From: Promicromonospora sp. Populi
GTDB lineage: Bacteria; Actinomycetota; Actinomycetes; Actinomycetales; Cellulomonadaceae
Reading direction: 5' to 3'
NCBI RefSeq assembly: GCF_041081105.1
Contig: NZ_CP163528.1
Coordinates: forward strand, 4,216,001 to 4,280,000
Length of the DNA stretch: 64,000 nucleotides
Shown here: in pieces, positions 10,848 to 30,107 of the stretch
Layout: every line of letters begins with the position of its first letter
Numbering within the stretch: the first letter of the stretch is position 1
Translations under genes and position numbers: made by a program
The notes under the pieces: generated by a model
What the model was told of the DNA's origin: nothing
What the model saw: the letters and a program-made list of their open reading frames with translations, nothing else
Databases searched by the model: none

Positions 10848-10855
10848 CCCACCTG

Positions 10856-10916
10856 GTTGTGGGCGCGATCGTTGCGCCTAAAGCGGGCGCGAAGCCGCAA
10901 CGATCGCGCCCACAAC
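10856..10916. repeat. Palindromic repeat, copy 1 (araD-araA gap)
   Basis: Arms at 10856-10876 and 10896-10916 are perfectly complementary (21 bp) around a 19-nt loop containing CCTAAAGCGGGC. The core arm is TTGTGGGCGCGATCGTTGCG. Copies 2 (14380) and 3 (30042, inverted orientation) share the arm sequence and the loop length. It occupies most of the 84-nt gap between araD and araA, so it is likely transcribed and may act as a processing or attenuation site. Confidence 0.85.
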
Positions 10917-10931
10917 GAAAGGAAAACAGAG

Positions 10932-12443
10932 ATGTCGAAGCCCTACGCGGACCGTGAGGTCTGGTTCCTCACCGGGAGCCAGGACCTCTACGGCGAGGAG
11001 ACCCTCGCCCAGGTCGCGGAGCAGTCCCAGGAGGTCGCCCGGGCCCTGGCCGCGTCGTCGTACGTGCCGGTCGAGGTCGTGTGGAAGCCCGTCCTGAAGG
11101 ACTCGGCCTCGATCCGCCGCGCCATGCTGGAGGCGAACAGCGACGACAAGGTGCTGGGCGTCGTCACCTGGATGCACACCTTCAGCCCCGCGAAGATGTG
11201 GATCGCCGGCCTGGACGCGCTGCGCAAGCCGCTGCTGCACCTGCACACGCAGGCGAACGTCGAGCTCCCCTGGGACGAGATCGACATGGACTTCATGAAC
11301 CTCAACCAGGCCGCGCACGGCGACCGCGAGTACGCGTACCTCGCCACGCGGCTCGGGGTCGCGCGGACCACTGTGGTGGGCCACGTCTCCAACCCGGCAG
11401 TCACACACCGGGTCGGTACCTGGGTGCGCGGCGCGGCCGGCTGGGCCGCGACGCACGAGCTCAGGCTGGTGCGGTTCGGCGACAACATGCGCAACGTGGC
11501 GGTCACCGAGGGCGACAAGACCGAGGCCGAGCTGCGGTTCGGCGTCTCGGTGAACACACACGGCGTGAACGACCTGGTCGCGGCGGTGGACGCCGTCGAG
11601 GAGCCTGCGATCGACACGCTGGTGGCGGAGTACGAGGAGCGGTACGACGTCGCCCCCGAGCTGCGGGCCGGCGCCGAGCGGCACGACTCCCTGCGCTACG
11701 CCGCGCGCCAGGAGCTCGCGCTGCTCGGGTTCCTGGAGGCGGCCGGCGCCAAGGCGTTCACCACCAGCTTCGAGGACCTGGGCGCCCTGCGCCAGCTCCC
11801 CGGTCTGGCGGTCCAGCGCCTCATGGAGCAGGGCTACGGTTTCGGCGCCGAGGGCGACTGGAAGACGGCGGTGCTTGTGCGGGCGGCCAAGGTGATGGGG
11901 CTCGGCCTCCCCGGTGGCGCGAGCCTGATGGAGGACTACACCTACGACCTCACACCGGGCTCCGAGCTCGTCCTCGGCGCGCACATGCTGGAGGTCTGCC
12001 CGTCGCTGACCAGCACAAAGCCGCGCATCGAGGTCCACCCGCTCGCCATCGGCGGCAAGGAGGACCCGGTCCGGATGGTCTTCTCCGCCGACGCCGCCCA
12101 GGGCGCCGTCGTCGTCTCGCTCGCCGACATGCGCGACCGGTTCCGCCTGACGGCGAACGTGGTCGACGTCGTCACCCCGCCGCACGCCCTGCCGAACCTG
12201 CCCGTGGCGCACGCCATGTGGGCGCCGCGGCCGTCCTTCGAGATCTCCGCCGAGTCGTGGCTGACGGCGGGCGGCGCCCACCACACCGTCATGTCGACGG
12301 CCGCGGGCATCGAGGCGTTCGAGGTGTTCGCGAACATCGCGCGCACCGAGCTGCTGATCATCGACGAGGACACGACGCGCCGCGGCTTTGCCGACCAGGT
12401 CCGCCACAACCAGGCCTACTACCGCCTGGCCCAGCCCCTCTAG
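10932..12443 (+). CDS. araA: L-arabinose isomerase
   Basis: AraA converts L-arabinose to L-ribulose, the first step of the pathway, using a divalent metal. The 503-residue length matches the family. Visible signatures are [18 protein letters not shown] at the N-terminus, [15 protein letters not shown], the [21 protein letters not shown] segment and the C-terminal metal histidine region ([11 protein letters not shown]). ATG 10932 is preceded by a GAAAGGAAAACAGAG purine-rich site. It is the third gene of araBDA, separated from araD by palindromic repeat copy 1. Its stop overlaps by 4 nt the stop of the convergent GPP34 gene. Confidence 0.96.
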
Positions 12444-13126
12444 CTGCCGGACGAGGCCGCACCCGCGGCGGCCACGGTCACCGCGACCATCGCCGCGTTG
12501 ACCTCGTCGATCGCGCGCTTCACCGCGGCGCCGGCCCACTCCGACGCGGCGATCTCCTTGGCCCGGCGCTTCAGCGCGCGCCGGTCCTGCTCGGGGAAGA
12601 CCTTGCGGAGCAGGTCGGTCGCGAGCAGCAGCGAGACCAGGGCCGACGTCGGACCGTCGGCGTCCGCGCTCCCGGTCAGTGCGGCCAGCACCCGCTCGCG
12701 GACCGCGGCCTCTGGCGCCGGGTCGTGCGCCGGCCAGGTCGTGATCGGGAACAGCCCGAGCACCTTGACCTGCTCCTCGCGCAGCACGCCCCGGGCGGCC
12801 AGCCCCTGCTGCAGGGTCTGGCGCAGCCTCCGGCCGAAGCCGCCCTGCCCGATCTTCTGGATCGCCGCCTTGGGCCTGCGGTTGTCCAGCAGGTCGAGGA
12901 TCTCGCGCTGCACAGGGTCCGACGGCGTGGCGCGGCCGGCCGCGCGGAACCGGCCGCGCTGGCCGCCGTCCGCGCCGTCGGACACGGTGAGCGCACCGCG
13001 CAGCGTGAGCTCAGCCATGGACGCTCCGGCGAGGGCGAGCTGGAGGTGCTGCCCGCTGACCATCGGTCGACCCGAGGTGTCGTCGAGGGCGAGGAGCAGG
13101 TACTCCTCGGCGAGGCTGAGGTCCAC
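12440..13126 (-). CDS. GPP34/GOLPH3-family protein
   Basis: This 228-residue cytoplasmic protein belongs to the GPP34 (Golgi phosphoprotein 3-like) family, frequent in actinobacteria and of unknown bacterial function; eukaryotic members bind phosphoinositides. The start [21 protein letters not shown] and the later LTLRGAL and [13 protein letters not shown] segments follow the family pattern. GTG 13126 is preferred over upstream starts because GGGAGACG lies before it and the domain begins there. It is convergent with araA (overlapping stops) and sits between two arabinose-related units without an evident metabolic connection. Confidence 0.82.
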
Positions 13127-13281
13127 GGATCGTCTCCCGTTCGGCGGTGGTCGGTCTGTCAGGCCCCAGCAGATCATGGCCGGCCCGGGGGCGTGATCCG
13201 TCGCAAGGATGACCGCGAGCCCCGGGTCGGCGAGGCAGATTCGTTGCTCGATTGTGATGCCGTCCACTTTCGGCGCATTCA

Positions 13282-13295
13282 TGTTAGCGCTAACA
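13282..13295. promoter_or_regulatory. Perfect LacI-type operator before the YtfQ-type transporter
   Basis: TGTTAGCGCTAACA is a perfect 14-bp palindrome matching the core of LacI/GalR operators. Its right half overlaps a -10-like TAACAT (13291-13296). The gene starts at 13359 after a short leader. Together with 8336, 22828 and 4977 it defines a local set of related sites. The remaining gap between the divergent GPP34 gene (start 13126) and this site shows nothing else recognised. Confidence 0.85.
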
Positions 13296-13358
13296 TTTCT
13301 CGGGCAGGCAGGCATCTAGCACCCGCACGACGCCGTGCGGGGATCTCAAGGAGGAGAC

Positions 13359-14366
13359 ATGGCACGCACAACCCTGACCCGTACCGTCCTGGCCGCGGTG
13401 TCGGCAGCCTCGCTGTTCGCGCTCGGCGCGTGCAGCTCGGACGCAGGCACGCAGACCCCGGGCGGAAGCGAGTCCGGCGGCGGCGCCGACGACGGCGTCA
13501 TCACTCTCGGTTTCTCGCAGGTGGGCGCCGAGTCCGGGTGGCGCGCCGCCAACACGAAGTCCATCCAGGACACGCTCACCGAGGAGAACGGCTTCGAGCT
13601 CAAGTTCTCCGACGCGCAGCAGAAGCAGGAGAACCAGATCCAGGCCATCCGCTCCTACATCACGCAGGGCGTGGACGTCATCGCGTTCTCCCCGGTGGTC
13701 GAGACCGGCTGGGACGCCGTGCTCCAGGAGGCCAAGGCGGCAGGCATTCCCGTGATCCTCACGGACCGCGCCGTCGACTCCAGTGACGAGACGCTGTACG
13801 AGTCGTTCATCGGCTCCGACTTCGTGCTCGAGGGCGAGACGGCCGGACAGTGGGCGGTCGAGCAGTACGACGGCGAGGGCTACCAGGCCGTCGAGCTCCA
13901 GGGCACCACGGGCGCCGCCCCGGCGATCGACCGCAAGGAGGGCTTCGAGTCCGCCATCGAGGGCTCCGACATCGAGATCATCGACAGCCAGACGGGCAAC
14001 TTCACGCGGGCCGAGGGCAAGACCGTTATGGAGGGCTTCCTGAACGCCCACGACGACATCGACCTCGTGTTCGCGCACAACGACGACATGGGGCTCGGCG
14101 CGATCGAGGCCATCGAGGCCGCCGGCATGACGCCCGGCGAGGACATCAAGATCATCACGATCGACGCCGTCAAGGACGGCATGCAGGCGCTGGCCGACGG
14201 CAAGATCAACTACATCGTCGAGTGCAACCCGCTGCTCGGCCCGGACCTGGCGGAGATCGCCCAGAAGGTCCTCGCCGGCGAGGAGGTCGAGAAGCGCATC
14301 GTGGTCGAGGACCAGGCGTTCGACCAGGCCGCGGCGATCGAAGCGCTGCCGACGCGCGAGTACTGA
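13359..14366 (+). CDS. ytfQ: Furanose-type sugar-binding lipoprotein (YtfQ family)
   Basis: This 335-residue periplasmic-binding-protein-like lipoprotein matches the YtfQ type: FSQVGAESGWRAANTKSIQDT near the start of the mature region, then QENQIQAIRSYITQGVDVIAF. Escherichia coli YtfQ binds galactofuranose, and related Shewanella proteins serve arabinose. The lipobox is LGACSSD near residue 26. AAGGAGGAG lies 7 nt before ATG 13359. Given araBDA upstream and a secreted arabinofuranosidase downstream, L-arabinofuranose is the likely ligand (inference). Repeat copy 2 begins 13 nt after its stop, before the ATPase gene. Confidence 0.9.
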   Translation: MARTTLTRTVLAAVSAASLFALGACSSDAGTQTPGGSESGGGADDGVITLGFSQVGAESGWRAANTKSIQDTLTEENGFELKFSDAQQKQENQIQAIRSYITQGVDVIAFSPVVETGWDAVLQEAKAAGIPVILTDRAVDSSDETLYESFIGSDFVLEGETAGQWAVEQYDGEGYQAVELQGTTGAAPAIDRKEGFESAIEGSDIEIIDSQTGNFTRAEGKTVMEGFLNAHDDIDLVFAHNDDMGLGAIEAIEAAGMTPGEDIKIITIDAVKDGMQALADGKINYIVECNPLLGPDLAEIAQKVLAGEEVEKRIVVEDQAFDQAAAIEALPTREY

Positions 14367-14379
14367 CGCCCCGTCCCTC

Positions 14380-14446
14380 TTGGTTGTGGGCGTGACCGTT
14401 GCGCCCATACCGGGCACGTAGTCGCAACGATCACGCCCACGGCCAA
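14380..14446. repeat. Palindromic repeat, copy 2 (ytfQ-ytfR gap)
   Basis: Arms at 14380-14403 and 14423-14446 pair over 24 positions with one mismatch and two G-U pairs, around a 19-nt loop (CCCATACCGGGCACGTAGT). The core is the same TTGTGGGCGTGA-CGTTGCG sequence as copies 1 and 3. It lies between the binding-protein gene and the ATPase gene of one transport operon, where a stable hairpin would favour a higher level of binding-protein mRNA than of ATPase and permease mRNA. Confidence 0.85.
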
Positions 14447-14468
14447 GGGCCGAGCAAGAAGGTCGAGG

Positions 14469-15995
14469 ATGACCCAGCAGACAACAGCAGCCGTCGTCGA
14501 GATGACCGGCATCAGCGTCGAATTTCCCCCGGTGAAGGCCCTCGACGGGGTCGACTTCAGCCTGCGCCCCGGCGAGATCCACGCGCTCATGGGTGAGAAC
14601 GGCGCGGGCAAGTCCACCCTGATCAAGGCCCTCACGGGGATCCATACGCCGACGGCGGGGACGATCCGCGTCGACGGCGTCGAAAGGAGGTTCACCGGCC
14701 CCGCCGACGCCCGGGCCCACGGCGTCAGCACCGTGTACCAGGAGGTTAATCTCTGCGAGAACCTCACGGTCGCGGAGAACATCATGCTCGGCGCCGAGCC
14801 GCGGCTGCTGGGCGCCCTGCACTGGCCAGCGATGCGCCGGCAGGCGGCGAAGCACCTGGAGCGGATGGGCCTGACCATCGACCCGGCGTCGTCGCTGGGC
14901 TCGCACTCGCTGGCGGTGCAGCAGCTCGTCGCGATCTGCCGGGCCACGGTGAGCGACTGCAAGGTGCTGGTCCTCGACGAGCCCACCTCCAGCCTTGATA
15001 CCGACGAGGTGGAGCGCCTGTTCACCGTCATGCGCTCGCTGCGCGCCGACGGCGTGGCGATCCTGTTCGTGAGCCACTTCCTGGACCAGGTCTACGAGGT
15101 CTCCGACCGCATGACCGTGCTGCGCAACGGCGCTCTCGTGGGCGAGTTCGTCACCGCGGACCTGCCGGCCGCGGAGCTGGTGCAGCACATGATCGGCCGT
15201 TCCATGGACGTGCTGGAGGAGGTCGAGGAAGTCGTCGAGCGGGCCGAGCGGCCGGCCGGTGCCGCCCCGCTGCTGCAGGTGGTCGGGCTGGGTCGCAAGG
15301 GGTCCGTGCAGCCTTTCGACCTCGACCTCTACGAGGGAGAAGTTGTGGGCCTCGCCGGGCTGCTCGGCTCGGGCCGTACGGAGCTGGCGCGCCTCCTCAC
15401 GGGCGCCGACCGGGCCGACGCCGGCCAGACCCGCGTGGCCGGGAAGGTCACCAGGCTGCGGACTCCCCGCACGGCCATGGGCCACGGCATCGCGTACACG
15501 TCCGAGGATCGCAAGGGCGAGGGCGTCGTGGACGGCCTGACCGTGCGGGAGAACATAGTGCTCGCCCTCCAGGCGGAGCGCGGCTGGATGCGGCCGTTGC
15601 CCCGCAAGCAGGTCGACGAGCTGGTCGCGTCGTACATCCAGCGGCTCGGCATCCGACCCGCCAACCCAGAGGCGCTGCTGCGCAACCTGTCCGGCGGCAA
15701 CCAGCAGAAGGTGCTGCTCGCGCGGTGGCTCGCCACGTCGCCCCGGCTGCTCGTCCTGGACGAGCCGACGCGCGGCATCGACGTCGGCGCCAAGGCGGAG
15801 ATCCAGAAGCTCGTGGCCGACCTGGCCGCGGACGGCATGTCCGTCGTCTTCATCTCCGCGGAGCTCGAGGAGGTGCTGCGTCTCTCGCAGCGCATCGCCG
15901 TGCTGCGGGACCGCCGCAAGGTTGCGGAGATCGACGGAGCAGGAGCCACGATGAACCAGGTGGTCGAACTCATCGCAGGGGGTGGGGCAGCGTGA
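14469..15995 (+). CDS. ytfR: Sugar ABC transporter ATPase, duplicated domain (YtfR family)
   Basis: This 508-residue CUT2 ATPase has two fused nucleotide-binding domains. The first has Walker [10 protein letters not shown] and Walker B VLVLDEPTSSLD. The second has the usual degenerate P-loop (GLLGSGRTE) with a normal signature LSGGNQQKV and [12 protein letters not shown]. It powers uptake through the two following permeases. ATG 14469 has GGTCGAGG upstream. The stop overlaps the next gene's start by 4 nt. Confidence 0.93.
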   Translation: MTQQTTAAVVEMTGISVEFPPVKALDGVDFSLRPGEIHALMGENGAGKSTLIKALTGIHTPTAGTIRVDGVERRFTGPADARAHGVSTVYQEVNLCENLTVAENIMLGAEPRLLGALHWPAMRRQAAKHLERMGLTIDPASSLGSHSLAVQQLVAICRATVSDCKVLVLDEPTSSLDTDEVERLFTVMRSLRADGVAILFVSHFLDQVYEVSDRMTVLRNGALVGEFVTADLPAAELVQHMIGRSMDVLEEVEEVVERAERPAGAAPLLQVVGLGRKGSVQPFDLDLYEGEVVGLAGLLGSGRTELARLLTGADRADAGQTRVAGKVTRLRTPRTAMGHGIAYTSEDRKGEGVVDGLTVRENIVLALQAERGWMRPLPRKQVDELVASYIQRLGIRPANPEALLRNLSGGNQQKVLLARWLATSPRLLVLDEPTRGIDVGAKAEIQKLVADLAADGMSVVFISAELEEVLRLSQRIAVLRDRRKVAEIDGAGATMNQVVELIAGGGAA

Positions 15996-17059
15996 GCAAC
16001 CTGCTTCGCCACCACCTCTTCTGGCCGGTGACCGCCCTGGTCGCCCTGCTGGTCGCCAACACGGTCGCCCGGCCCAGCTTCCTCGCGATCACGGTCCGGG
16101 ACGGCCACCTGTTCGGCGCCCCGGTCGACATCCTGCGGACCACCGCGCCCCTGCTGCTGGTCGCCCTCGGCATGACGCTGGTCATCGCGACGCGCGGCAT
16201 CGACCTCTCGGTCGGCGCAGTGGTCGCGGTCTCGGGAGCGGTGGCGCTGTCGCACATCGCGTCGTCGCCGAATCCCGAGTCACCCGTCACCGTACTCACC
16301 GCCATCGGACTCGCCCTGGCACTGTGCCTGGTGCTGGGCGTGTGGAACGGGTTCCTGGTCTCGGTGCTCGGCATCCAGCCGATCATCGCCACGCTCATCC
16401 TGATGACGGCGGGCCGCGGCGTCGCCATGCTCATCACCGGCGGCATGATCACCACTATCAACAGCGCGCCGTTCAAGACGCTCGGCTCGGGATTCTGGCT
16501 GGGCCTGCCCGTGGCCGCCGTCATCGCGTTCGGCGTGTTCGCCGTGGTCGCGTTCGTGGTGCGGCGTACAGCGCTCGGCATGCTCCTGGAGGCGACGGGC
16601 ATCAACCCGTCCGCCAGCCGGCTGTCCGGCGTGCGGTCCAAGACGCTGACCTGGACCGTGTACACGGCGTCGGGCCTGTTCGCGGGTCTGGCGGGGCTGC
16701 TGATCAGCGCCGACACCATGGCCGCCGATGCCAACAACGCAGGCGTGTTCATCGAGCTCGACGCGATCCTCGCGGTGGTGATCGGTGGGACGGCGCTCTC
16801 TGGCGGCAAGTTCAACCTGTCGGGCACCCTGGTGGGCGCCCTCGTCATCGCGACCCTGGAGCGGACCGTCACCGTGCTCGGGGTCTCCCCGCTGGTCACG
16901 CCACTGTTCATGGCCCTCGTCGTCATCGCGGTGACGCTGCTGCAGTCGCCGCGGATGCGGGAACGGCTCATGGCCGCCACCCGGCGCCCGGTCGCAACGA
17001 CGCCGCCCGAGCCGCAGCCCGCTGCGCGCCCCGACTCGACGGAGGTGAAGGCCCGATGA
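15992..17059 (+). CDS. ytfT: Sugar ABC transporter permease (YtfT family)
   Basis: This 355-residue CUT2 permease has about nine or ten transmembrane segments. It carries the family motif ATRGIDLSVGAVVAVSG and the C-terminal IGGTALSGGKFNLSGTLVG loop. It begins with GTG overlapping the ATPase stop by 4 nt. A Pro/Ala/Arg-rich cytoplasmic tail of about 30 residues follows the last helix. It forms a heteromeric channel with the next gene product, as in the YtfT-YjfF pair. Confidence 0.92.
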   Translation: MSNLLRHHLFWPVTALVALLVANTVARPSFLAITVRDGHLFGAPVDILRTTAPLLLVALGMTLVIATRGIDLSVGAVVAVSGAVALSHIASSPNPESPVTVLTAIGLALALCLVLGVWNGFLVSVLGIQPIIATLILMTAGRGVAMLITGGMITTINSAPFKTLGSGFWLGLPVAAVIAFGVFAVVAFVVRRTALGMLLEATGINPSASRLSGVRSKTLTWTVYTASGLFAGLAGLLISADTMAADANNAGVFIELDAILAVVIGGTALSGGKFNLSGTLVGALVIATLERTVTVLGVSPLVTPLFMALVVIAVTLLQSPRMRERLMAATRRPVATTPPEPQPAARPDSTEVKAR

Positions 17060-18057
17060 CGACATCGGCCCCCGCTCGCGCGCCGCGCCGTGCGCTGAAG
17101 ATCCCCACCCGGCTGGACCGGCGCTACCTGCCGGTGGTCGGCACGTTCGTGGTGCTCGCGCTCATGCTGATCGTGGGTGGCAGCCGGTACGAGAACTTCC
17201 TCACGCCGGCCGTGATCTCCAACCTGTTCATCAACAACGCGCACCTCATAGTGCTCGCGGTGGGCATGACGTTCGTGATCCTCACCGGCGGCATCGACCT
17301 CTCGGTCGGGTCCGTCCTGGCGCTGTCCACGGTGGTCACCGCCGCACTGTTCCAGGCCGGCTGGCCGGGGGCAGCGGTCATCCCGCTCGCCGTCGGCGCC
17401 GGGACCGTGATCGGCCTGGCCCACGGCGTGATGGTGCACTACTTCCAGGTGCAGCCGTTCGTGGCGACCCTCGCGGGCATGTTCTTCGCACGCGGGCTGT
17501 GCTTCCTCATCGCGCCGGAGTCCATAGCCATCGACGACCCGGCGTTCGTGGCGCTCGCCGGCTGGGTCCAGATCTTCGGCGAGTGGCGCATGACCTCCAG
17601 CGTGCTCATCGGGCTGATCGTGGTGGGCCTCGGGTTCCTGGTGCTGCACTTCACGCGGTTCGGCCGCACGGTGTACGCGATCGGCGGCAGCGAGCAGTCC
17701 GCCCTGCTCATGGGCCTGCCCGTGGCCCGCACCAAGGTGCTCGCCTACGTGGTGAGCGGCACCTGCGCGGGGCTCGGCGGCCTGCTGTTCGCGATGTACT
17801 CCCGGTCCGGCTACTCGCTGACCGGCGTCGCCATGGAGCTCGACGCCATCGCGGCGGTCGTCATCGGCGGCACGCTGCTCACGGGCGGCACCGGGTTAGT
17901 GCTCGGCTCCGTGCTTGGCGTGCTGGTGCTCGGCTTGATCCAGACCATCATCACGTTCGAGGGCACCCTCAGCTCCTGGTGGACCAAGATCGTGATCGGC
18001 GTGCTGCTGCTCATCTTCGTGGCCCTCCAGCGGGTGCTGTCCCTCCGCAGGACGTAA
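17056..18057 (+). CDS. yjfF: Sugar ABC transporter permease (YjfF family)
   Basis: This 333-residue second CUT2 permease overlaps ytfT by 4 nt. The motif [19 protein letters not shown] and the GGTLLTGGTGLVLGSVLGVL segment are diagnostic of the branched ribose/galactofuranose permease family. Two different permease genes in one CUT2 operon is the specific mark of YtfQRT-YjfF systems and distinguishes them from ribose-type systems with a single permease. The unit ends at the perfect hairpin at 18067. Confidence 0.92.
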   Translation: MTTSAPARAPRRALKIPTRLDRRYLPVVGTFVVLALMLIVGGSRYENFLTPAVISNLFINNAHLIVLAVGMTFVILTGGIDLSVGSVLALSTVVTAALFQAGWPGAAVIPLAVGAGTVIGLAHGVMVHYFQVQPFVATLAGMFFARGLCFLIAPESIAIDDPAFVALAGWVQIFGEWRMTSSVLIGLIVVGLGFLVLHFTRFGRTVYAIGGSEQSALLMGLPVARTKVLAYVVSGTCAGLGGLLFAMYSRSGYSLTGVAMELDAIAAVVIGGTLLTGGTGLVLGSVLGVLVLGLIQTIITFEGTLSSWWTKIVIGVLLLIFVALQRVLSLRRT

Positions 18058-18066
18058 CCGGTACCC

Positions 18067-18107
18067 CGCCCCGGACTCGGCGTACCAGGTACGCCGAGTC
18101 CGGGGCG
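18067..18107. terminator. Perfect 20-bp hairpin closing the YtfQRT-YjfF operon
   Basis: Positions 18067-18086 and 18088-18107 are exact reverse complements around a single central base, so the whole is a 41-nt palindrome (in RNA the innermost pairs open as a loop). It begins 9 nt after the yjfF stop. No U-tract follows. It is likely a terminator between the transporter operon and the arabinofuranosidase gene. Confidence 0.8.
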
Positions 18108-18168
18108 CAGTACTGCCGGCCTTACCAGCGACCCACTCCACAGCGACGTGACGAAGGGATCGACAGAC

Positions 18169-21100
18169 ATGTCTTTGCAACGATACAAAAGAGGTGCGCT
18201 CGCGATGGGCGCGGTGCTCGCGGTGGGCCTGGCCGGGCTGGTCGTGGCGCCCGACGCCGACCCGGTCGCCTCCGCGGCCGAGCCGCCCGAAGCCGGCGAC
18301 GCCGCCTACTTCTTCCCCTACTTCACGGGGGAGTCGACGGCGGACGGCGAGACCATCTCGTTCGCCGTCTCGAACGGCCCGGACCCCCTGGAGTGGACCA
18401 CGCTGAACGGCGGCGACCCGGTCCTCACGTCCACCCTCGGTACCGAGGGTCTGCGCGACCCGTTCCTGATCCGCGGCGGGGACGGCACGTACTACCTGCT
18501 CGCGACGGACCTGCAGATCTACGGCGGCGGCAACTTCGGCGACGCGCAGGAGACGGGCAGCCGCTCGATCATGGTCTGGGAGTCCACCGACCTGGTGAGC
18601 TGGGGTGAGCAGCGCGAGATCGAGCTCGCCCCCGAGAACGCGGGCAACCTGTGGGCGCCCGAGGCGTACTGGGACGAGGCAGCCGGGGAGTTCGTCGTCT
18701 ATTGGGCCTCCGCCCTGTACCCGGCCGACGTCCCGCCCGCCGAGCGCGACATCCGGGACTCCTACCAGCGCATGCTGTACGCGACCACCACCGACTTCGA
18801 GACGTTCTCGGAGCCGCAGCCGTGGATCGACGAGCCGCAGGGCGACGGTCTCGGCATGATCGACTCGACGGTCCAGGAGGAGGACGGCGTCTACTACCGC
18901 CTCACCAAGGACGAGTCGTACATGGGGATGCGGCAGGAGTCGTCCACCGACCTGCGCCGCACGCAGGGCGTGTCCGACGGCGACGGCTGGGACCTCATCT
19001 CCGAGCGCGTCGGGTTCGGTCAGCCGAACCCGTGGGGCGGCACCTTCACCGGGGGTGAGGGGCCCACGCTGTTCCCGTCGCTCACCGACGACCGCTGGTT
19101 CCTGCTCCAGGACCAGCCGAGCTATCACGGTGGCCAGGGCTACATGCTCTTCGAGTCCGACGACCTGAGCAGCGGCGAGTGGGCGGCCAACCTCGACGCG
19201 ATCCTGCCGGCCAGCCCCCGGCACGGGACGGTCCTGCCGATCACCGCCGAGGAGCGGGCGGCACTGCTGGTGGCGTACCCGCCGGCCGAGGCCCCGGTCC
19301 AGGAGCACACGCTCGACGTCGACGCCGTGGCCGCGGGTACCGAGATGAGCGACGACCTGTACGGCGTCTTCTACGAGGACATCAACTACGCGGCCGACGG
19401 CGGCCTGTACGCCGAGCTGGTGCGCAACCGGTCCTTCGAGTTCGCGGCCACGGACAACCGGAACTTCACCGGCATGACGGGGTGGGACGTGGTGGAGCGC
19501 CGTGGGGCCACCGGCACCGCCCAGGTGCAGTCCGAGCGGGGAGAGTGGCTCGACGACGCGAACCGGGCCTACCTGACCGTCGAGGCCGACGGTCCCGGCG
19601 TCGGCGTGCGCAACGCGAGCTACAACGCGGGCTTCGCTGTCGAGAAGGGCGAGAAGTACGACTTCTCGGTGTTCGCGCGTGCCGAGCGCAAGCAGCGCCT
19701 CACCGTGCGCCTCGAGTCCCCGGACGGCGCGACGACGTACGCGTCGACCAGTGTCAACGTCAACGGCACCGACCGCTGGAAGAAGCACACGGCCAAGCTC
19801 ACCGCGAACGCGACCGTCGACGGCGCCCGGCTCGTGGTGACGGGCGGCGCGGCCGGCACGCTGCGGCTCGACATGGTCTCCCTGTTCCCGCGCGACACGT
19901 GGGAGGGTCCGGTCAACGGCCGCTCGGTGCTGCGCAAGGACCTCGCGCAGAAGGTGGCCGACCTGGAGCCGTCGTTCCTGCGCTTCCCCGGCGGCTGCGT
20001 CACCAACGTCGGCACCTTCGACACGTACCTGGAGTCGGACGGCGCGGACCGCCGTCGGACGTACCAGTGGAAGGAGACCATCGGGCCGGTCGAGAAGCGC
20101 CCGACCAACTGGAACTTCTGGGGCTACAACCAGACCTACGGCCTGGGCTACCTCGAGTACTTCCAGTTCGCCGAGGACCTGGGGGCGACGCCGCTGCCCG
20201 TGCTGTCCGTGGGCGCCAACGGCTGCGGCAGCAACATCCCCGAGATGACGGACGACGTCCGCATCGACCGCTGGGTGCAGGACACCGTCGACCTCATCGA
20301 GTTCGCCAACGGGTCGGTGGACACGGAGTGGGGCGCCAAGCGCGCAGCGCTGGGGCACCCCGACCCGTTCAGCCTGAAGTACATCGGGCTGGGCAACGAG
20401 GAGAACACCGACACCTTCCAGGCGAACTTCCCGCGGTTCCGGGACGCTGTCGAGGCGGCCCACCCCGAGGTCACCGTGATCTCGAACTCTGGCCCGGACG
20501 ACACCGGCGCCCGGTTCGACGAGCTGTGGGACTTCAACCGCGAGCAGGGCGTCGCGATGGTCGACGAGCACTACTACAACGACCCGTCGTGGTTCCTCAG
20601 CAACACCGAGCGCTACGACTCCTACGACCGCGAGGGCCCGCACGTGTTCCTCGGCGAGTACGCCTCGCGGGGCAACACCTGGGCCAACTCGCTGTCCGAG
20701 GCCGCGTACATGACCGGGATCGAGCGCAACGCCGACCTGGTGGAGCTTGCCTCGTACGCGCCGATGTTCGCCAACGAGGACCACGTCCAGTGGTCCCCGG
20801 ACCTGATGTGGTTCGACAACGACGAGTCGTGGGGCTCGACGTCGTACTACACGCAGCAGATGTTCATGACGAACACCGGCGACCAGGTGGTCCCGTCCAC
20901 GCACGACGGCCCGGAGGAGACCCCTGCGGACATCTCGGGCGGCGTCTTCCTGTCGACCTGGAACACCCAGGCCGCTTACGACGACGTGGTGGTCACCGAC
21001 AACGAGTCCGGCGAGGTGCTCTTCTCCGACGCGTTCGAGGACGGGTCGCAGTGGGCCCCGCAGTCCGGCACGTGGGCCGTGTCCGACGGCGAGTACGTGC

Positions 21101-21765: not shown

Positions 21766-21780
21766 CCGTTTGCCCCCACG

Positions 21781-21808
21781 GGACCACCGTCAACCCGTAC
21801 GGTGGTCC
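21781..21808. terminator. Hairpin overlapping the alarmone synthetase promoter
   Basis: GGACCACCGT (21781-21790) pairs perfectly with ACGGTGGTCC (21799-21808) around an 8-nt loop. It may terminate the arabinofuranosidase mRNA 16 nt after its stop. The right arm also contains TACGGT (21798-21803), which lies 6 nt before the next gene's GTG and looks like a leaderless -10 element, so terminator and promoter appear superimposed. Confidence 0.6.
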
Positions 21809-21809
21809 C

Positions 21810-22589: not shown

Positions 22590-22813
22590 CCTGCGCCATC
22601 GGCGTGAGGATGGCGTGCGCGTTCCCGATGTGCCTGCCGGACCCCTTGGCTTCACGATGTGGAGGCGGGTCTCGGGATTCCTTGACCAGGTTCTCAGCAG
22701 GTTGACGGTCTCGATGCCGTAACCATCCGAGAAGCACTCCTTACTTTTCCTCGACCACCACTACGGTGGTAGCGTCGCCGATCGATCGTGGCGGAGTTCA
22801 CCCCGGCGCGGTT
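22590..22813. other. Gap between alarmone synthetase and ChvE promoter
   Basis: About 220 nt without a convincing reading frame. The only structure seen is a short inverted repeat (ACCACC-ACTAC-GGTGGT) near 22757-22773. No repeat copy or RNA gene was recognised here. Confidence 0.4.
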
Positions 22814-22843
22814 TTGACCAACGCCTGTGTGAGCGTTCACAAT
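22814..22843 (+). promoter_or_regulatory. Promoter with LacI-type operator before the ChvE-type gene
   Basis: TTGACC (22814-22819) and CACAAT (22838-22843) are spaced by 18 nt. The palindrome TGTGAGCGTTCACA (22828-22841) fills the spacer and covers the -10, an ideal place for repression. A second, shorter inverted repeat TGTGTTCACA (22848-22857) follows at the expected start of transcription. The half-site CGTTCACA is identical to the one at 4983-4990. Confidence 0.75.
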
Positions 22844-22915
22844 CTGTTGTGTTCACATTTTGAAGTCGGCCGGGTCGCAGAGACGTTGCCCGGGCAAACT
22901 CGAAGAGGAGATGTC

Positions 22916-24079
22916 ATGGCAAGGAAGCTGTGGGCCAAGCGCGGTCTGGCCGCGCTGGCAACGGGCGCTGTGGCCGTGTCGCTCGCCGCATGTGGCGGAA
23001 GCGGCGCCGGTGGCGGTACCGATGACGGAGCCGGGGACGGCGAGGCCGGCGGTCTCGTCGGTGTCGCGATGCCGACCGAGACCTACGAGCGCTGGGTCGC
23101 CGACGGCGACGCCGTGGAGAGCGGCCTCGAGGCGGCTGGCTACGAGGTCGACCTGCAGTTCGCGGGTGACGACATCCCGACCCAGCAGCAGCAGATCGAC
23201 GCGATGATCAACAGCGGTGCCGAGGCGCTCATCATCGCCTCGATCGACGGCACCGCGCTGGGCAGCCAGCTCGAGGCCGCCGCTGCCTCGAACATCCCGG
23301 TGATCTCGTACGACCGCCTGATCCGCGACTCGGAGAACGTCGACTTCTACGTTACGTTCGACAACTACGAGGTCGGCGTGCAGCAGGGCACCTCGCTGCT
23401 GACCGGTCTGGGCGTGCTGGACGAGAGCGGCGAGCCGATCGCCGACGCGGGCCCGTTCAACATCGAGCTCTTCGCCGGTTCGCCGGACGACAACAACGCC
23501 GGGTTCTTCTTCGAGGGCGCGATGTCGGTGCTCCAGCCCTTCATCGACGACGGCACCGTGGTCGTGCCCTCGGGCCAGACCGAGTTCGGCACCGTCGCCA
23601 TCCAGCGCTGGGAGCAGGAGGGCGCGCAGACCCGCATGGAGGACCTCCTGACCTCCACGTACAGCGATGGCGACGCCGTCGTCAACGGTGTGCTCGCGCC
23701 CGCCGACGTGCTGTCGCGCGGCGTCATCACCGCCCTGCAGAACTCGGGCTACGGCGAGGGCGACCTCACCATCCCGATCGTCACCGGTCAGGACGCCGAG
23801 GCGGCGTCAGCCAGGCTGATCCGCGAAGGTGTGCAGTACTCGACGATCTTCAAGGACACGCGTCTGCTGGCCGACCAGGCCGTCACCGCGGCGACGGCGT
23901 TCCTCGAGGGCAACGAGCCCGAGGCGAACGACACGGAGACGTACGACAACGGCGTCCAGGTCGTGCCGTCGTTCCTGCTCCCCACGGTGATCGTCACCGC
24001 TGACAACCTCGATGCAGAGCTGATCGACTCGGGTTACCTCACCGAGGAAGAGGTCGCCTCCGGTCAGGTCGACGAGTAG
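22916..24079 (+). CDS. chvE: Multiple-monosaccharide-binding lipoprotein (ChvE family)
   Basis: This 387-residue cluster B solute-binding lipoprotein matches the ChvE/XylF type: VGVAMPTETYERWVADGD at the mature start, then YDRLIRDSENVDFYVTFDNY and the PIVTGQDAEAASARLIREG segment. Agrobacterium ChvE binds glucose, galactose, arabinose and xylose. The lipobox is SLAACGGS near residue 26. AGAGGAG lies 6 nt before ATG 22916. It heads a three-gene CUT2 operon controlled by the LacI-type operator at 22828 and is followed by a long hairpin. Confidence 0.92.
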   Translation: MARKLWAKRGLAALATGAVAVSLAACGGSGAGGGTDDGAGDGEAGGLVGVAMPTETYERWVADGDAVESGLEAAGYEVDLQFAGDDIPTQQQQIDAMINSGAEALIIASIDGTALGSQLEAAAASNIPVISYDRLIRDSENVDFYVTFDNYEVGVQQGTSLLTGLGVLDESGEPIADAGPFNIELFAGSPDDNNAGFFFEGAMSVLQPFIDDGTVVVPSGQTEFGTVAIQRWEQEGAQTRMEDLLTSTYSDGDAVVNGVLAPADVLSRGVITALQNSGYGEGDLTIPIVTGQDAEAASARLIREGVQYSTIFKDTRLLADQAVTAATAFLEGNEPEANDTETYDNGVQVVPSFLLPTVIVTADNLDAELIDSGYLTEEEVASGQVDE

Positions 24080-24121
24080 GCCTGACCTCCTCGCGACACC
24101 GGCTCGACACTGTCGCACCCT

Positions 24122-24168
24122 CGTGTCAGACCGTCAGGTCACCTTCCGTGGCCTGACGGTCTGGCACG
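24122..24168. terminator. Long hairpin between ChvE-type and ATPase genes
   Basis: Arms 24122-24142 and 24148-24168 pair over 21 positions with two G-U pairs and a 5-nt loop (CTTCC). It begins 42 nt after the binding-protein stop and about 80 nt before the ATPase start. As with copy 2 at 14380, its position inside a transport operon suggests partial termination or 3' protection of the binding-protein mRNA. Confidence 0.75.
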
Positions 24169-24249
24169 GCACTGCAGGGAGCGTGCTCGGCGTCGGCGTC
24201 GGGCATCCGTAACACCACCACTGGCGACAAGTACGCGACAAGGACTGGC

Positions 24250-25821
24250 ATGGCCGATTCGGCGCCGACCGACATCCTCGAGATGCGCGGCATCACCAAG
24301 ACATTCCCTGGGGTCAAGGCACTCCAGGACGTCAGCCTCACCGTCCGCCGGGGCGAGATCCACGGGATCTGCGGCGAGAACGGGGCTGGCAAGTCCACCC
24401 TGATGAAGGTGCTCTCAGGTGTGTACCCGTACGGCACCTATGAGGGCGACATCGTGCTCGACGGCGAGGCCGCCGAGTTCGGCAACATCAACGACTCCGA
24501 GGCGCGGGGCGTGGTGATCATCCACCAGGAGCTCGCGCTCGTCCCCTACCTGTCGATCGCCGAGAACATCTTTCTCGGGAACGAGCGCCGCCGTGGAGTC
24601 GGCGCCATCGACTGGAACCGGACCAACGCCGAGGCAGCAGTGCTGCTGGAGCGGGTGGGGCTCAGCGAGTCGCCGACCACGCCCATCTCCGCGCTCGGCG
24701 TCGGTAAGCAGCAGCTTGTCGAGATCGCCAAGGCGATCTCGAAGGACGTGCGGCTGCTCATCCTCGACGAGCCGACGGCGGCACTTAACGACAACGACTC
24801 CGAGCACCTGCTCGACCTGCTCCGTCAGTTCAAGGAACAGGGCATCACGTCGATCATGATCTCTCACAAGCTCGCCGAGATCGCCGAGATCGCCGACCGC
24901 ACGACGATCATCCGCGACGGCCGGTCGATCGAGACCTTCGACATCGCCGGCGCCGGCGCGTCGTCCGAGGCGATCCAGAACCGCATCATCCGCGGCATGG
25001 TGGGTCGAGACCTCGACAACCGCTACCCCGACCGCGAGTCGCACCCCGGTGAAGAGGTGCTGCGGATCGAGGACTGGACCGTGTACCACCCGACCCAGCC
25101 CGGGCGCATAGTCGTCGACGGTGCGAACCTGACCGTGCGGGCCGGCGAGGTGGTCGGCATCGCCGGCCTCATGGGCGCCGGGCGTACCGAGCTCGCGATG
25201 TCGCTCTTCGGCCGCTCCTACGGCCGGGACATCTCCGGGAAGGCTTATCTGCACGGCAAGGAGATCGCCGTCCAGAACGTGCCGGACGCGATCCAGGCCG
25301 GCATCGCGTACGTGTCGGAGGACCGCAAGCAGTACGGGCTCAACCTCATCGAGGACGTGAAGCGCAACATCTCGGCGGCCGGCCTCGGCAAGCTGTCGAA
25401 GTACGGCTTCGTGGACGAGAACGAGGAGCTCAAGGTCGCCGAGGAGTACCGCGAGTCCATGAACATCCGCACGCCCAACGTGCTGGTGGAGGTCGGCAAG
25501 CTCTCGGGCGGTAACCAGCAGAAGGTGGTGCTGTCCAAGTGGCTGTACACCGCACCTGAGGTGCTGATCCTCGACGAACCCACGCGGGGCATCGACGTCG
25601 GCGCCAAGTACGAGATCTACACCATCATCAACGAGCTGGTCGCGGCGGGGAAGGCCGTGCTGGTCATCTCCTCGGAGCTCCCCGAGCTCCTCGGGATCTG
25701 CGACCGCATCTACACCCTGGCCTTCGGCCGCATCACTGGCGAGGCCGACGTGGCCTCAGCCACCCAGGAAGGACTCATGGCTCTCATGACGCAGGAGACC
25801 AAGCAGGAGACGAAGGCATGA
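24250..25821 (+). CDS. mmsA: Multiple-monosaccharide ABC transporter ATPase (MmsA/GguA family)
   Basis: This 523-residue CUT2 ATPase has two nucleotide-binding domains. Domain 1 has GENGAGKST and [12 protein letters not shown]. Domain 2 has [32 protein letters not shown] and [12 protein letters not shown]. It energises sugar import through the following permease. The ATG at 24250 has AAGGAC upstream. Overlap of 4 nt with the permease implies coupled translation. It is similar to but distinct from the YtfR-type ATPase at 14469; this window therefore encodes two CUT2 systems. Confidence 0.93.
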
Positions 25822-26999
25822 CCGGCATCGCGAATCTCAGAGAGCTGTTCACGCGCAATATCCGCACCAGCGGCATCTACATCGCGTTCGTGCTGATCAT
25901 CGCGCTGTTCACCGTGCTGACGGATGGCAGGCTGCTCAGTGACCGGAACCTGACGACTCTCGTTCTTCAGTTCTCATACATCCTCATCCTCGCCATCGGC
26001 ATGGTCATCATCATCATCGGCGGGCACATCGACCTGTCGGTAGGGTCGGTGGTAGCACTGACTGGTGCGGTAGCCGCCGTCGTCGTGATCCGGAACGGCC
26101 TGCCCTGGTGGGTCGGAGTGCTCGCCGCGCTGGGTACCGGTCTGCTGGTCGGTGCCTGGCAAGGGTTCTGGGTGGCGTACGTCGGGATCCCGGCATTCAT
26201 CGTGACGCTGGCTGGCATGCTGCTGTTCCGCGGCCTCACCCTCGATGTGCTCAACAACGTCTCGCTCTCGCCGTTCCCGGCGGAGTACAACTCGATCGCC
26301 ACCGGCTTTGTCCCCGCGCTGCTCGGCGGCTACGGGTACGACACGTTCACACTCGTTATCTTCGCGATCGGTGTACTGGGCTTCGCGTACAACTCGTGGC
26401 GCAACCGCCGCGCGCGTATCGAGTACAAGCAGACCGTCGAAGCGCCGGTGCTGTTCGTGCTGAAGCTCGTGGTCGTCGCGGCCGTCGTTATGTGGTTCGC
26501 GTACAACCTCGCCACATACCGCGGCTTGCCCGCGGTGCTGATTGTCCTGGCCGTGCTGGTTTTGGCGTATACGCTGGTCACCAAGCACAGCGTGTTCGGT
26601 CGCCACGTCTACGCCATCGGCGGCAACCTCGCCGCGGCACAGTTGTCTGGTGTGCGTGTTAAGCGCGTGAACTTCTGGATGTTCGTGAACATGGGCTTCC
26701 TGGCTGCAGTGGCCGGAATCGTGTTCTCGGCCCGGTCGGATACGGCTCAGCCAGCGGCGGGCAACATGTTTGAGCTCGACGCGATCGCGGCGTGCTTCAT
26801 CGGTGGTGCCGCGGTGACCGGCGGTATCGGCACCGTGACCGGCGCGATGGTCGGTGGCCTGATCATGGCCGTCATGTCCAATGGAATGTCGCTAATGGGC
26901 ATCGACCAGTCGACGCAGCAGATTGTCAAGGGCATCGTGCTGCTGCTGGCCGTGGCGTTCGACGTCTGGAACAAGAAGCGGGCCGCCGCCGCCCGCTGA
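25818..26999 (+). CDS. mmsB: Multiple-monosaccharide ABC transporter permease (MmsB/GguB family)
   Basis: This 393-residue CUT2 permease with about ten transmembrane segments has the [19 protein letters not shown] motif and the C-terminal [21 protein letters not shown] loop. The central insertion of roughly 60 residues ([19 protein letters not shown]) is characteristic of GguB-type permeases and accounts for the greater length than YtfT or YjfF. It is followed after 14 nt by a 15-bp hairpin that likely terminates the operon. Confidence 0.92.
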
Positions 27000-27013
27000 G
27001 TGTTCAGAGATGA

Positions 27014-27053
27014 GTTCGCCGACGGGCAACACGCACGGTGCCCGTCGGCGAAC
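27014..27053. terminator. 15-bp hairpin at the end of the ChvE-type operon
   Basis: Arms 27014-27028 and 27039-27053 are exact complements around a 10-nt loop. It lies between the permease stop (26999) and the stop of the convergent gene (27057), so it can terminate transcription from both sides. Confidence 0.8.
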
Positions 27054-27056
27054 CTG

Positions 27057-27831
27057 TCACGAGATGGTGACCGACTTCTTCGGCAGCGCGTCCGGGGCGA
27101 AGGAATGAGAGCGGTCGCCGGAGTGGATTATCAACTTAGTGAGTTCATTGGTCATCGTGATCGTCGGGTAGATCGGCTGATTAAGTACTGGCGTCTCCGT
27201 GAATTTCCCAATCGACCATGTAGCCATGGTGCCTGTCGACGTGATCGTGAACTGATCGGTCGTAACTGTGTTCGTTGTGTAGTTGCGGTACGCCCATAGC
27301 TTGTTCACGTTTGGGAGTGTCGGGGTGTAGCTGATCCCCCACGGGAAGCTGACGCTCAGGCAGTCACCGCACGCCTCCCCATATTGGGTGTTGTCCGTCC
27401 ATGCCGTCGTCAGCTCGACACGTGCCGACGGTAGCGGCTGGAGTACTCTGCCGGTTCCGCAGTGGTCGTAGAACTGGACGACTGTCGTCGGAGAGAGCAG
27501 TCCAGGCCTTGCGATCCAGCGCATAATTTGCGTGTTGTCGGTAGTCATATAGGCTATCGGTCTGATAGGTGATGTTGCCGAATTCTTTGACGACGACGCA
27601 TCGGTTCAGCGCTTCGTAATTGGTCGTCTTGGAATAGTAGTGAGTTTTGCTGATCCACTCTGACGGCGCCCGAGCGGGTGCGGGCTTGTCTGCCGCCGTG
27701 GCTGTGGATGTCGTAGCGGACGTCGAGTTGTCCGTCCATGCCGTCGTTGTGGCCTGAGCTGATGTGATGGTGGCGCCGAGTAGTGCGGTCACGACCATGA
27801 CCACGAGACTGACGGTTCTCAGTCGTCGCAT
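27057..27831 (-). pseudogene. Frameshifted secreted-protein gene of low GC content
   Basis: Two overlapping frames look like one gene split by a frameshift. The first (27831 down to 27364) encodes a signal peptide (MRRLRTVSLVVMVVTALLGA, cleavage near TSAQA) and about 80 plausible residues. The second (27548 down to 27057) continues with a natural-looking sequence (VVQFYDHCGTG, CGDCLSVSFPWGISYTP). The switch lies somewhere in 27480-27548. The reconstructed product would be about 255 residues, secreted, with no family recognised. Base composition is clearly lower in GC than the surroundings, which suggests acquisition. A 21-bp direct repeat encoding TTAWTDN occurs at 27390-27410 and 27728-27748. 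It could be decayed, or the frameshift could be a sequencing error. Confidence 0.55.
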
Positions 27832-28038
27832 GCTTGCCCTCCTGCTCCTCTGGTGAGGACGGATGTGCCCTCACATCGGGATCATATGGTTAAAGCGGGC
27901 ATACGGGCCAATATACTTGAAGACCACGATACTTCACGGTTGGTGCAAAATGCCGATATTGGCGGTCGGTCCATGTGGACCGGTGCCCGGGCGACTGCAG
28001 TAGGGGCTACGGGTTGTCGGGCAGGGAGAATGGTTGGC

Positions 28039-28662
28039 ATGCCTGACAAGATCGTGCCCGTCAACGCTTCAAGCCGCCGCGGCCGGCGTCCCGCCGGTCA
28101 GGACGCCCGCGCCGACATCCTCGCCGCCGCGCTCGAGGAGTTCGTCGACCGCGGGTACGAGGCGTCCTCCCTGCGGTCGGTCGCCCGCCGGGCCGGGGTG
28201 GACCCGGGCACGGTGCGGCACTGGTTCCCGGACAAGCCGCGGCTGCTGACCGCGGCGCTCGGCGTCTCGGGGATCGAGCCGGACAAGGTGGTGGAGCGGG
28301 TCACGGCCGGTCCGGTCGAGACCCTCGGGGAGCGCCTCCTGGAGGCGGTGGTCGGCATGTGGGACTTCGACGGCGGTGACACCGTCCGCGTGGTCATCCC
28401 GGCGATCATGTCCGATGCCGGGCTGCGCAGCCTGCTGCCCCAGTTCATCGGTGCGGCCATCATGGCGCCGGTCATGCGCGCCATCGACGCGCCCGACGCC
28501 CCGCTGCGCACCGCGCTGGTGGCCTCGCAGCTTTCGGGGGTGCTGCTGACCCGGTACCTGATCCCGCTGGACCCGTTGGCCTCGCTCGCGCCGGACCAGG
28601 TGGCGCGGCTCGTGGGGCCGACCATCCAGCACTACCTCACCGGCCCGCTCCCGGCCCCGTAG
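28039..28662 (+). CDS. TetR-family transcriptional regulator
   Basis: This 207-residue TetR regulator has a helix-turn-helix at about residues 15-60 (ADILAAALEEFVDRGYEAS, then VARRAGVDPGTVRHWFPDK) and a TetR_C-like ligand domain (tail ending LVGPTIQHYLTG). ATG 28039 has GGGAG 10 nt upstream; ATG 28030 is a less likely in-frame alternative. It is divergent from the frameshifted secreted-protein gene across about 200 nt of AT-richer DNA, and convergent with the phytase gene (stops 6 nt apart). The likely target is itself or the divergent gene. Confidence 0.88.
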   Translation: MPDKIVPVNASSRRGRRPAGQDARADILAAALEEFVDRGYEASSLRSVARRAGVDPGTVRHWFPDKPRLLTAALGVSGIEPDKVVERVTAGPVETLGERLLEAVVGMWDFDGGDTVRVVIPAIMSDAGLRSLLPQFIGAAIMAPVMRAIDAPDAPLRTALVASQLSGVLLTRYLIPLDPLASLAPDQVARLVGPTIQHYLTGPLPAP

Positions 28663-28668
28663 AAGAGG

Positions 28669-29973
28669 TCAGTGCAGGCGCAGGGCCCGTGCGACGTCGC
28701 CCCAGTGCACGTACGAGAAGCCCGTCGCGTCGCGCTCCGGGTCCGTGTCCGGGCCGGTCTCGGGCTCGTCGTGCGTCACCAGCAGGCCGGACCGGTACTC
28801 GCCCACTGGCGCGTTGGAGACCGCCAGCCCGTCCGAGCCGTTGACGTCGTCCACGCCGTCGCCCGCGACCCGGAACGTGCCGAGCGAGCGGTTCTTGCCG
28901 GTCAGGGCGTAGACGCCGTAGGTGTCGTCGCCCTGGCTGGACACGATCACGTAGCCCGTGCCGCCGCGGCCGTACCAGATGTCCACACCCTCGGCGTCGG
29001 CGGTCAGGTTCTTGCCCCCGTACGACGGCGCTTCCGGGTCCACGGGGGCGCATTCCTCGGTCTCGGGGTCGTAGGCGTCGTGCACGCCGAAGTCCGTGAC
29101 CTTGTCGACCAGGCGCGGCTTGCCCGAGCCCAGCGGCAGCGGCACCCGCCACAGGCCGACGTCCTCCTGCGTGGCGTACAGCGTGCCGGTGTGGCGGTCC
29201 ACGGCGACGCCCTCCAGCTGCGGCCCCACCCCGGGCTCCTCGCACGGCACCCAGGTGGTGCCGTCGGGCAGGCGGAACTCGCCGGGCATCGTCAGGTGCT
29301 CGACGTCGGTGTAGCCCACGCCACCCGGGCCGGTGGTGATGCGGGCCGTGGCGATAGTGGTGCTCCCCTCCTGGGTCACCACCGCATACGTCTCGCCGCG
29401 GCGGGGCTGGTAGACGGCCAGGCCGTACGCGGTCTGGTCCTCGGCGACCGTCTCCCGGTCCGGGCTGAACAGGAACTCCAGCTCGGGCGCGGTGACCTCG
29501 GCCAGCGGCGTTGCGGCGTCGGCCCCTGCGGGGTCGATCGCGAAGAAGCGGATCTGGTCGTTGTACCGGTCCGAGACGACGGCGACGTCCGTCGGCGTGC
29601 CGTCCACGTCCAGGCCGTAGGCGATGTCCACGTTGTTGTACCGGCCGGAGACGCCGTCCGCGCGCGGGGCCGGCGTGGCCGGGACCGACTGCAGCTCGGT
29701 CGCGGCCACGTCATAGACCCGCAGGCCCCCCTCCTTGGCCGTCGCGACGACGATCGAGCGCTCCGAGTCATCGGGGTGCACCCAGATGGCGGGGTCGTCG
29801 CCGGACGCGTTGCCGCCGGCCTCGTCGTCGTACAGCGGGGCCGTCTCCACCGAGGTGGTGACGGTCGCGGGGCCGGACCCCGGTCGCCCGGACCCGCCGC
29901 TAGCGGCCGCGGCAGGTGCGAGCAGGGGCAGGACCAGCAGGGCGGCCGACAGGCCGACGAAGCGACGTCGCAT
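28669..29973 (-). CDS. Secreted beta-propeller phytase
   Basis: This 434-residue exported 3-phytase-like protein would hydrolyse phytate outside the cell, releasing phosphate with calcium dependence. The signal peptide is MRRRFVGLSAALLVLPLLAP with an AAAASG cleavage region near residue 26. Beta-propeller phytase repeats are visible: GDDPAIWVHPDD, RYNNVDIAYGLDVDG, VVSDRYNDQIRFFAID, QLEGVAVDRHTGTLYATQED, DAEGVDIWYG and SSQGDDTYGVYALTG. ATG 29973 follows GGGAG by 9 nt. Copy 3 of the palindromic repeat is about 70 nt upstream. It is probably its own transcription unit. Confidence 0.9.
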   Translation of the reverse strand: MRRRFVGLSAALLVLPLLAPAAAASGGSGRPGSGPATVTTSVETAPLYDDEAGGNASGDDPAIWVHPDDSERSIVVATAKEGGLRVYDVAATELQSVPATPAPRADGVSGRYNNVDIAYGLDVDGTPTDVAVVSDRYNDQIRFFAIDPAGADAATPLAEVTAPELEFLFSPDRETVAEDQTAYGLAVYQPRRGETYAVVTQEGSTTIATARITTGPGGVGYTDVEHLTMPGEFRLPDGTTWVPCEEPGVGPQLEGVAVDRHTGTLYATQEDVGLWRVPLPLGSGKPRLVDKVTDFGVHDAYDPETEECAPVDPEAPSYGGKNLTADAEGVDIWYGRGGTGYVIVSSQGDDTYGVYALTGKNRSLGTFRVAGDGVDDVNGSDGLAVSNAPVGEYRSGLLVTHDEPETGPDTDPERDATGFSYVHWGDVARALRLH

Positions 29974-30041
29974 GCGCAGAGGCTCCCGCACCCAAGTGAC
30001 GCGAACCTGAACCCCAAACGAACACAAACCCGACCATTTGC

Positions 30042-30098
30042 TGTGGGCGTGATCGTTGCGACTACCCGCCCGCTTTAGGCGCAACGATCACGCCCACA
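30042..30098. repeat. Palindromic repeat, copy 3 (inverted orientation)
   Basis: Arms 30042-30060 and 30080-30098 pair perfectly (19 bp) around a 19-nt loop. The loop's reverse complement, CCTAAAGCGGGCGGGTAGT, matches the copy 1 loop for its first 12 bases and the end of the copy 2 loop, so the element is inserted in the opposite orientation. It lies 9 nt past the acuC stop codon on the minus strand, the same position relative to an upstream gene as copies 1 and 2. Confidence 0.85.
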
Positions 30099-30107
30099 AG
30101 CAACGGG

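Follow-up and report, generated by a model that had tools for sequence, protein, structure and literature searches.

The window analysed here, a 64,000-nucleotide stretch of the Promicromonospora sp. Populi genome (contig NZ_CP163528.1), carries three copies of a 67-bp palindromic element, which is probably a clade-specific repeat resembling the repetitive extragenic palindromes (REPs), without a REP-associated transposase (RAYT) and living as a hairpin at transcript 3′-ends. All three related palindromes named in the original prediction were found, at 10853–10919 (copy 1, plus strand; left arm 10853–10876, loop 10877–10895, right arm 10896–10919), 14380–14446 (copy 2, plus strand) and 30037–30103 (copy 3, loop read on the minus strand); the extent of the second copy was kept as first given, and those of the other two were revised. 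Each copy is exactly 67 bp and consists of 24-nt arms with few mismatches around an asymmetric 19-nt loop; the predicted loop length was right for all three, whereas the predicted arms (19–21 nt) and size (about 60 bp) were too short. The copies represent one element, with the arm consensus TTGGTTGTGGGCGYGATCGTTGCG and its complement and the loop consensus CCTAAAACGGGCGCGTAGT, and the palindrome does not extend outward past the 24-nt arms. Folding of the three copies gave hairpins of −43 to −49 kcal/mol with z-scores of −6.4 to −8.3 on both strands, and none of 200 shuffles was as stable. Linkers of 5, 13 and 4 nt separate the copies from the stop codons of araD, the ytfQ/chvE-type binding-protein gene and acuC, respectively, and by loop orientation every window copy has the direction of the gene upstream of it, the genes being those of a codon-usage caller trained on the window rather than of an annotation. 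The original prediction had allowed that the sequence might belong to a known RNA family; no Rfam family matched above its gathering threshold in the window.

The element is a dispersed, multi-copy family. At up to 2 mismatches, 94 arm matches were found in the window's own genome, compared with 6 for a reversed control pattern. A covariance model built from 20 copies identified 36 places in this 5.22-Mb single-contig genome, 34 of them at E ≤ 3e-7 and 31 of these 34 exactly 67 bp long, a count obtained by scoring 150 of 6682 first-look candidates, so that weak copies may be missed. These 34 copies bear out the predicted dispersed family in both orientations and dispose of the possibility, raised at the same time, that only the three window copies exist. 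Three of the 34 lie inside the window, which is more than an even spread predicts. The genome of P. soli (G004) gave 193 arm matches against 0 for the control, which when halved corresponds to about 97 copies; its perfect arms formed at least 35 pairs among the matches listed, of which 34 enclose a 19-nt loop and one contains a run of N. Derived forms were also seen: a loop-less mini palindrome (locus L267, 1555–1594) and an outer-arm-only one (L269, 1516–1545) both apparently stem from the element, and a short tandem array of outer-arm-like pieces (TCCGTTGTGGGCAGCC) lies upstream of a full copy in L048.

The family has a narrow host range. When 84,980 species genomes were scanned for the exact pattern, 40 stretches were found, all in three Promicromonospora genomes, those of sp. 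AC04 (G002), P. panici (G008) and P. soli. Strong matches (E ≤ 1e-13) occurred in 8 of 200 family genomes, namely 7 of the 13 in the genus and, with a single match, one of another genus; the six remaining genus genomes had zero or one match. A three-gene tree (2,919 sites, unrooted) splits the seven element-rich genomes from these six with a support of 0.91. As far as these genome sequences tell, the 67-bp element is confined to one side of the Promicromonospora genus tree. We found no description in the literature of the element in Promicromonospora or actinobacteria, although absence from print was weakly tested.

The placement of the copies relative to genes was determined for 111 distinct copies in retrieved loci of seven genomes, 40 of the stretches coming from the exact-pattern scan, and compared with random intergenic points in 664 kb that included the window's 64 kb. 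Counting as misses the 4 copies without a stop-side neighbour, 99 of the 111 lie within 15 nt of a stop codon compared with 7.4% of the random points, in line with the predicted tens of copies close behind stop codons. The median distance is 5 nt for the 107 copies that have a stop-side neighbour, three of the distances being negative, as small overlaps with called genes. By neighbouring genes, 60 copies are convergent, 42 co-directional and 4 divergent, the other 5 lie at stretch ends and were left unclassed, and none is inside a called gene. Convergent gaps hold 60 of the 106 classed copies but only 9.3% of intergenic bp (binomial p = 5e-34, with copies taken as independent although some are orthologs), whereas divergent gaps hold 4 of 106 and make up 41%. 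The same was found in the window's own genome alone, where 15 of 32 intergenic copies are convergent vs 7% of intergenic bp; this set left out two of 35 copies, loop-less or truncated and without a gap-free alignment, and one weak match inside a gene. In 45 of the 60 convergent cases, a stop codon lies no more than 15 nt away on either side of the copy, and the linkers contain more C than the same positions behind other genes. The two linkers sum to a median of 12 (n = 60), compared with a median of 37 for element-free convergent gaps (n = 89; p = 3e-4), which fits spacer replacement rather than simple insertion. From this placement we infer an RNA role as a transcript 3′-end structure, and the use as an mRNA 3′ structure that had been predicted is thus likely on positional grounds.

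The same placement might be left by a purely selfish, functionless palindrome that is seen behind stop codons only since selection removes its other insertions. The element is indeed multi-copy and restricted to part of the genus, the araD tail was recently replaced by it, and a strand-specific pairing signal is absent. Yet 34 of the 42 co-directional copies lie within 15 nt of the stop codon, where 9.6% of points fall, though there is room downstream, and this is tighter than would be suggested by tolerance alone; moreover, the binding-protein site discussed below retains a predicted hairpin in all 13 genomes despite replacement of its sequence. We regard a functionless palindrome as unlikely on this evidence.

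Comparison of orthologous sites across the genus indicated that the element takes the place of other sequence. Copy 1 lies between the araD-like gene (Aldolase_II, PF00596; 10131–10847) and the L-arabinose isomerase gene araA (10932–12443), both on the plus strand. These genes overlap by 4 bp in 12 of the 13 genomes, none of which has the element at this site; in the window's genome, the only one that carries it there, the element replaces the last araD codons and breaks the gene overlap. Copy 2 lies between the plus-strand genes for a sugar-binding protein (Peripla_BP_4, ytfQ/chvE type; 13335–14366) and an ABC transporter ATPase (14469–15995). The element occupies this site in three genomes, with a 15-nt loop in G001, and other hairpins occupy it in the remaining ten, so that all 13 genomes have a predicted hairpin there, of several unrelated sequences (z ≤ −3.3 in 12 and −1.5 in one). 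In G003 and G012, remnants resembling the element's arms flank a different palindrome. Palindromes apparently nested within other palindromes were noted at the binding-protein sites L203 (G010), L207 (G003) and L205 (G012). Copy 3 lies behind the acuC-like deacetylase gene (PF00850; 30108–31283) and before a phytase-like gene (PF02333; 28672–29973), both on the minus strand. The acuC-phytase order is kept in ten genomes, two with the element, three with another palindrome and five with none recognised, while a different gene follows acuC in G001, G005 and G007; a same-family ortholog of copy 3 occurs in G008 only. Over 88 ortholog comparisons, which are not independent, 37 had no hairpin, a class that includes imperfect hairpins below the threshold, 28 had another hairpin and 23 had the same family.

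These comparisons also bear on how the element moves. If the element were a miniature inverted-repeat transposable element (MITE) moved by a classical transposase, with the arms recognised as its terminal inverted repeats, this would account for the length of those repeats, of which 92.5% of cells pair over 20 copies, and for the outer TGTGGGCG stretch that some palindromes of other genera have in common with the element, as expected for recognised ends. Direct repeats of 3–9 nt flanking the copies were, however, not above those of shuffled partners (109 of 111 copies), which speaks against the MITE-like nature suggested at the outset, and the ortholog comparisons show spacer replacement and no clean insertion. 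In the own genome all perfect arms have a partner at the element's spacing, and three single imperfect arms, on inspection, were located within or next to genes that lack transposase domains. Searches of plasmid, phage and viral collections gave no match at the thresholds applied, and a phage or plasmid origin was rejected on this ground. We consider mobilisation as a MITE highly improbable. A RAYT partner, which the original prediction had suggested looking for, was not found either: the Y1 domain (PF01797) was found in none of the 13 genus genomes, whereas 5 of 14 control genomes were positive, and a RAYT origin was rejected for the genus. An IS110 partner was also rejected, as its domain does not track the element: of the 4 genomes among 13 that have it, two are rich in the element and two are poor. 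No autonomous element with the same ends was recognised in the own genome, the relatives not having been searched for one.

Changes within the element itself were followed in the 12 orthologous same-family pairs among the retrieved loci. Three of the 12 pairs have opposite orientation, and their loops, once flipped, differ at 2, 1 and 5 positions vs 14 unflipped. For one of these pairs, the ortholog's loop is the closest among all other loops of the set. Joint differences at paired arm positions numbered 10, compared with 5.7 expected when columns were permuted separately (p = 0.004). Template switching between short inverted repeats has been reported to homogenise arms and invert spacers (PMC8604942, PMC8794818), and arm homogenisation and loop flipping in the element may likewise be products of template switching during replication and not of an invertase.

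Several observations weigh against a transcript 3′-end hairpin maintained in this way. There is no U-tract after the three window hairpins, and a simple terminator scan did not flag them; a canonical intrinsic terminator was accordingly rejected for these copies, and termination by the hairpin, if any, would be non-canonical. Loop orientation relative to co-directional genes shows no significant bias (26 vs 16 of 42 copies, p = 0.16; in the own genome, 13 of 16 copies are on the same strand as these genes), and an orientation bias was rejected. The two other opposite-orientation pairs rank only 3 and 30 in loop similarity and are less certain as in-place flips, so that re-insertion is possible for both. 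A pooled Fisher test (2.0 expected, p = 2e-6) overstates the co-change of the arms, since it takes no account of how few columns are variable; one such column holds 5 of the 10 co-changes, and Watson-Crick pairs in both species are seen in just 5 of the 10. Mismatches of the G-T and A-C types are near equal, at 75 vs 68 cells with 2 of the 111 copies left out and 26 vs 29 in the own genome, which gives no sign of strand-specific selection on RNA pairing. In alignment A2, 17 to 122 of 500 shuffles reached the observed strand-specific pairing in five measures; with support this weak and the mismatches balanced, arm matching is not used here as proof of RNA selection. Finally, the loop positions C25, C26, C32, G33, G34 and C36 are conserved at 0.97–1.0, like the arm core, a degree of conservation that a simple hairpin would not require; over the last seven positions of the loop it falls to 0.47–0.81. 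Both values come from the 32 gap-free own-genome copies, because the exact pattern behind the 40 stretches itself fixes most of the loop.

Such conservation would be explained if the element were a dispersed protein-binding site, for a nucleoid protein or a termination factor or as a DNA-uptake signal, conserved through its reading by the protein. The fixed 19-nt spacing agrees with this, as do the loop and arm positions that hardly vary among the own-genome copies. A site of this kind is nevertheless difficult to reconcile with sister species that carry other palindromes or nothing at the same locus and with the six genus genomes that have no or one match. In addition, known uptake sequences have copy numbers far above those of the 67-bp element. 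A protein-read site thus appears very unlikely, and the transcript 3′-end hairpin stays the reading that we prefer.

The 67-bp element is best read as one of several such palindromic families in these genomes. A hairpin scan of 400 kb in each of four genomes and 171 kb of a fifth yielded several repeated, unrelated palindromes, most of which lie between genes, often convergent ones. When intergenic hairpins were grouped by the 10-mers that they share, repeated groups took in 38 of 58 in G005, 5 of 18 in G004, 7 of 11 in G010, 11 of 27 in G032 and none of 14 in G022. The palindromes in other family genera that have the outer stretch in common with the element differ from it in the inner arm and the loop. 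Behind stop codons in G005 (L104–L123), unrelated families were noted, among them GTGTCAGACG...CAGGTC, which has a loop of 4–8 nt and forms a group of 18 in 400 kb, and CCTTTGAGACCTAAGTTTCTTCGC, with 8 members. A palindrome group in G032 (L127, L129 and L133) has a 30-nt loop that is identical in two copies and similar in the third, and its outer arms differ. It is conceivable, if doubtful, that the 3′-end hairpins of these actinobacteria are competing mobile terminators, in which unrelated families would be copied onto the same gene ends by transposase-independent, hairpin-guided replication, displacing or nesting within one another, and in which the conserved asymmetric loop would be the part that is recognised.

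For the transcript 3′-end hairpin, the following course of events is proposed. The element has been copied to dozens of Promicromonospora gene 3′-ends, where it replaces what stood directly after the stop codon, either a short spacer or a different hairpin. When transcribed, it would form a very stable hairpin a few nucleotides past the stop codon, which may block transcription, 3′–5′ RNA decay or both. Between convergent genes the block would be two-sided, and inside operons such as that of the binding protein and the ATPase, the hairpin could perhaps serve as a device for differential expression. Template switching would keep the arms alike and now and then flip the loop, with no need for an invertase. 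If the 3′ placement is functional, transcript ends would behave as exchangeable modules whose sequences are replaced wholesale while the hairpin stays, and terminator evolution could be read from sister species. A REP-like family without RAYT in the genus would also reopen the question of the spread of such palindromes, for which genomes that carry the element and genomes that lack it can be compared within Promicromonospora.

The known systems were compared as far as the consulted portions of the cited papers describe them. Like the GTAG and CGTC REPs (PMC3733652), the element is a short dispersed palindrome found mostly between co-directional and convergent genes, with several families per genome and a possible RNA role. 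Those REPs are 20–40 bp with stems of 6–13 bp (GTAG) or 8–9 bp (CGTC) and an unpaired GTAG or CGTC tag, whereas the Promicromonospora element, at 67 bp with 24-nt arms and a 19-nt loop, is untagged: within 8 nt outside either end, on either strand, GTAG occurs at 5 and CGTC at 18 of the 111 copies. The host phyla named in that portion of the paper do not include Actinobacteria. Membership among these REPs was rejected on size and tag, while the element is, like them, a dispersed multi-copy extragenic palindrome. With the REPINs and RAYT-mobilised REPs (PMC3116915, PMC2817692) it has in common that non-autonomous palindromes reach many copies, but it differs in the absence of the Y1 domain from the genus. 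Escherichia coli REPs less than 16 nt from a stop codon are reported to lower translation (PMC12306157); 446 of 4,072 predicted REPs lie that close there, compared with 99 of 111 element copies here, the two sets being defined differently. Stem-loops in general prefer convergent gaps (PMC1590033), and since bacteria commonly have them there and close to stop codons, the placement by itself is no novelty. The Ype, Efa and Bor families are likewise repeated stem-loops favouring gene 3′-ends, with other sequences and hosts, and loop inversion is not described for them in the same partial source. Hairpins maintained by template switching resemble the element in arm homogenisation and loop or spacer inversion, but these are rRNA, microRNA or yeast coding loci, unlike a dispersed repeat family (PMC8794818, PMC8604942). 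What is distinctive about the Promicromonospora element is its tight stop-codon placement, long fixed loop, site replacement and changes of orientation.

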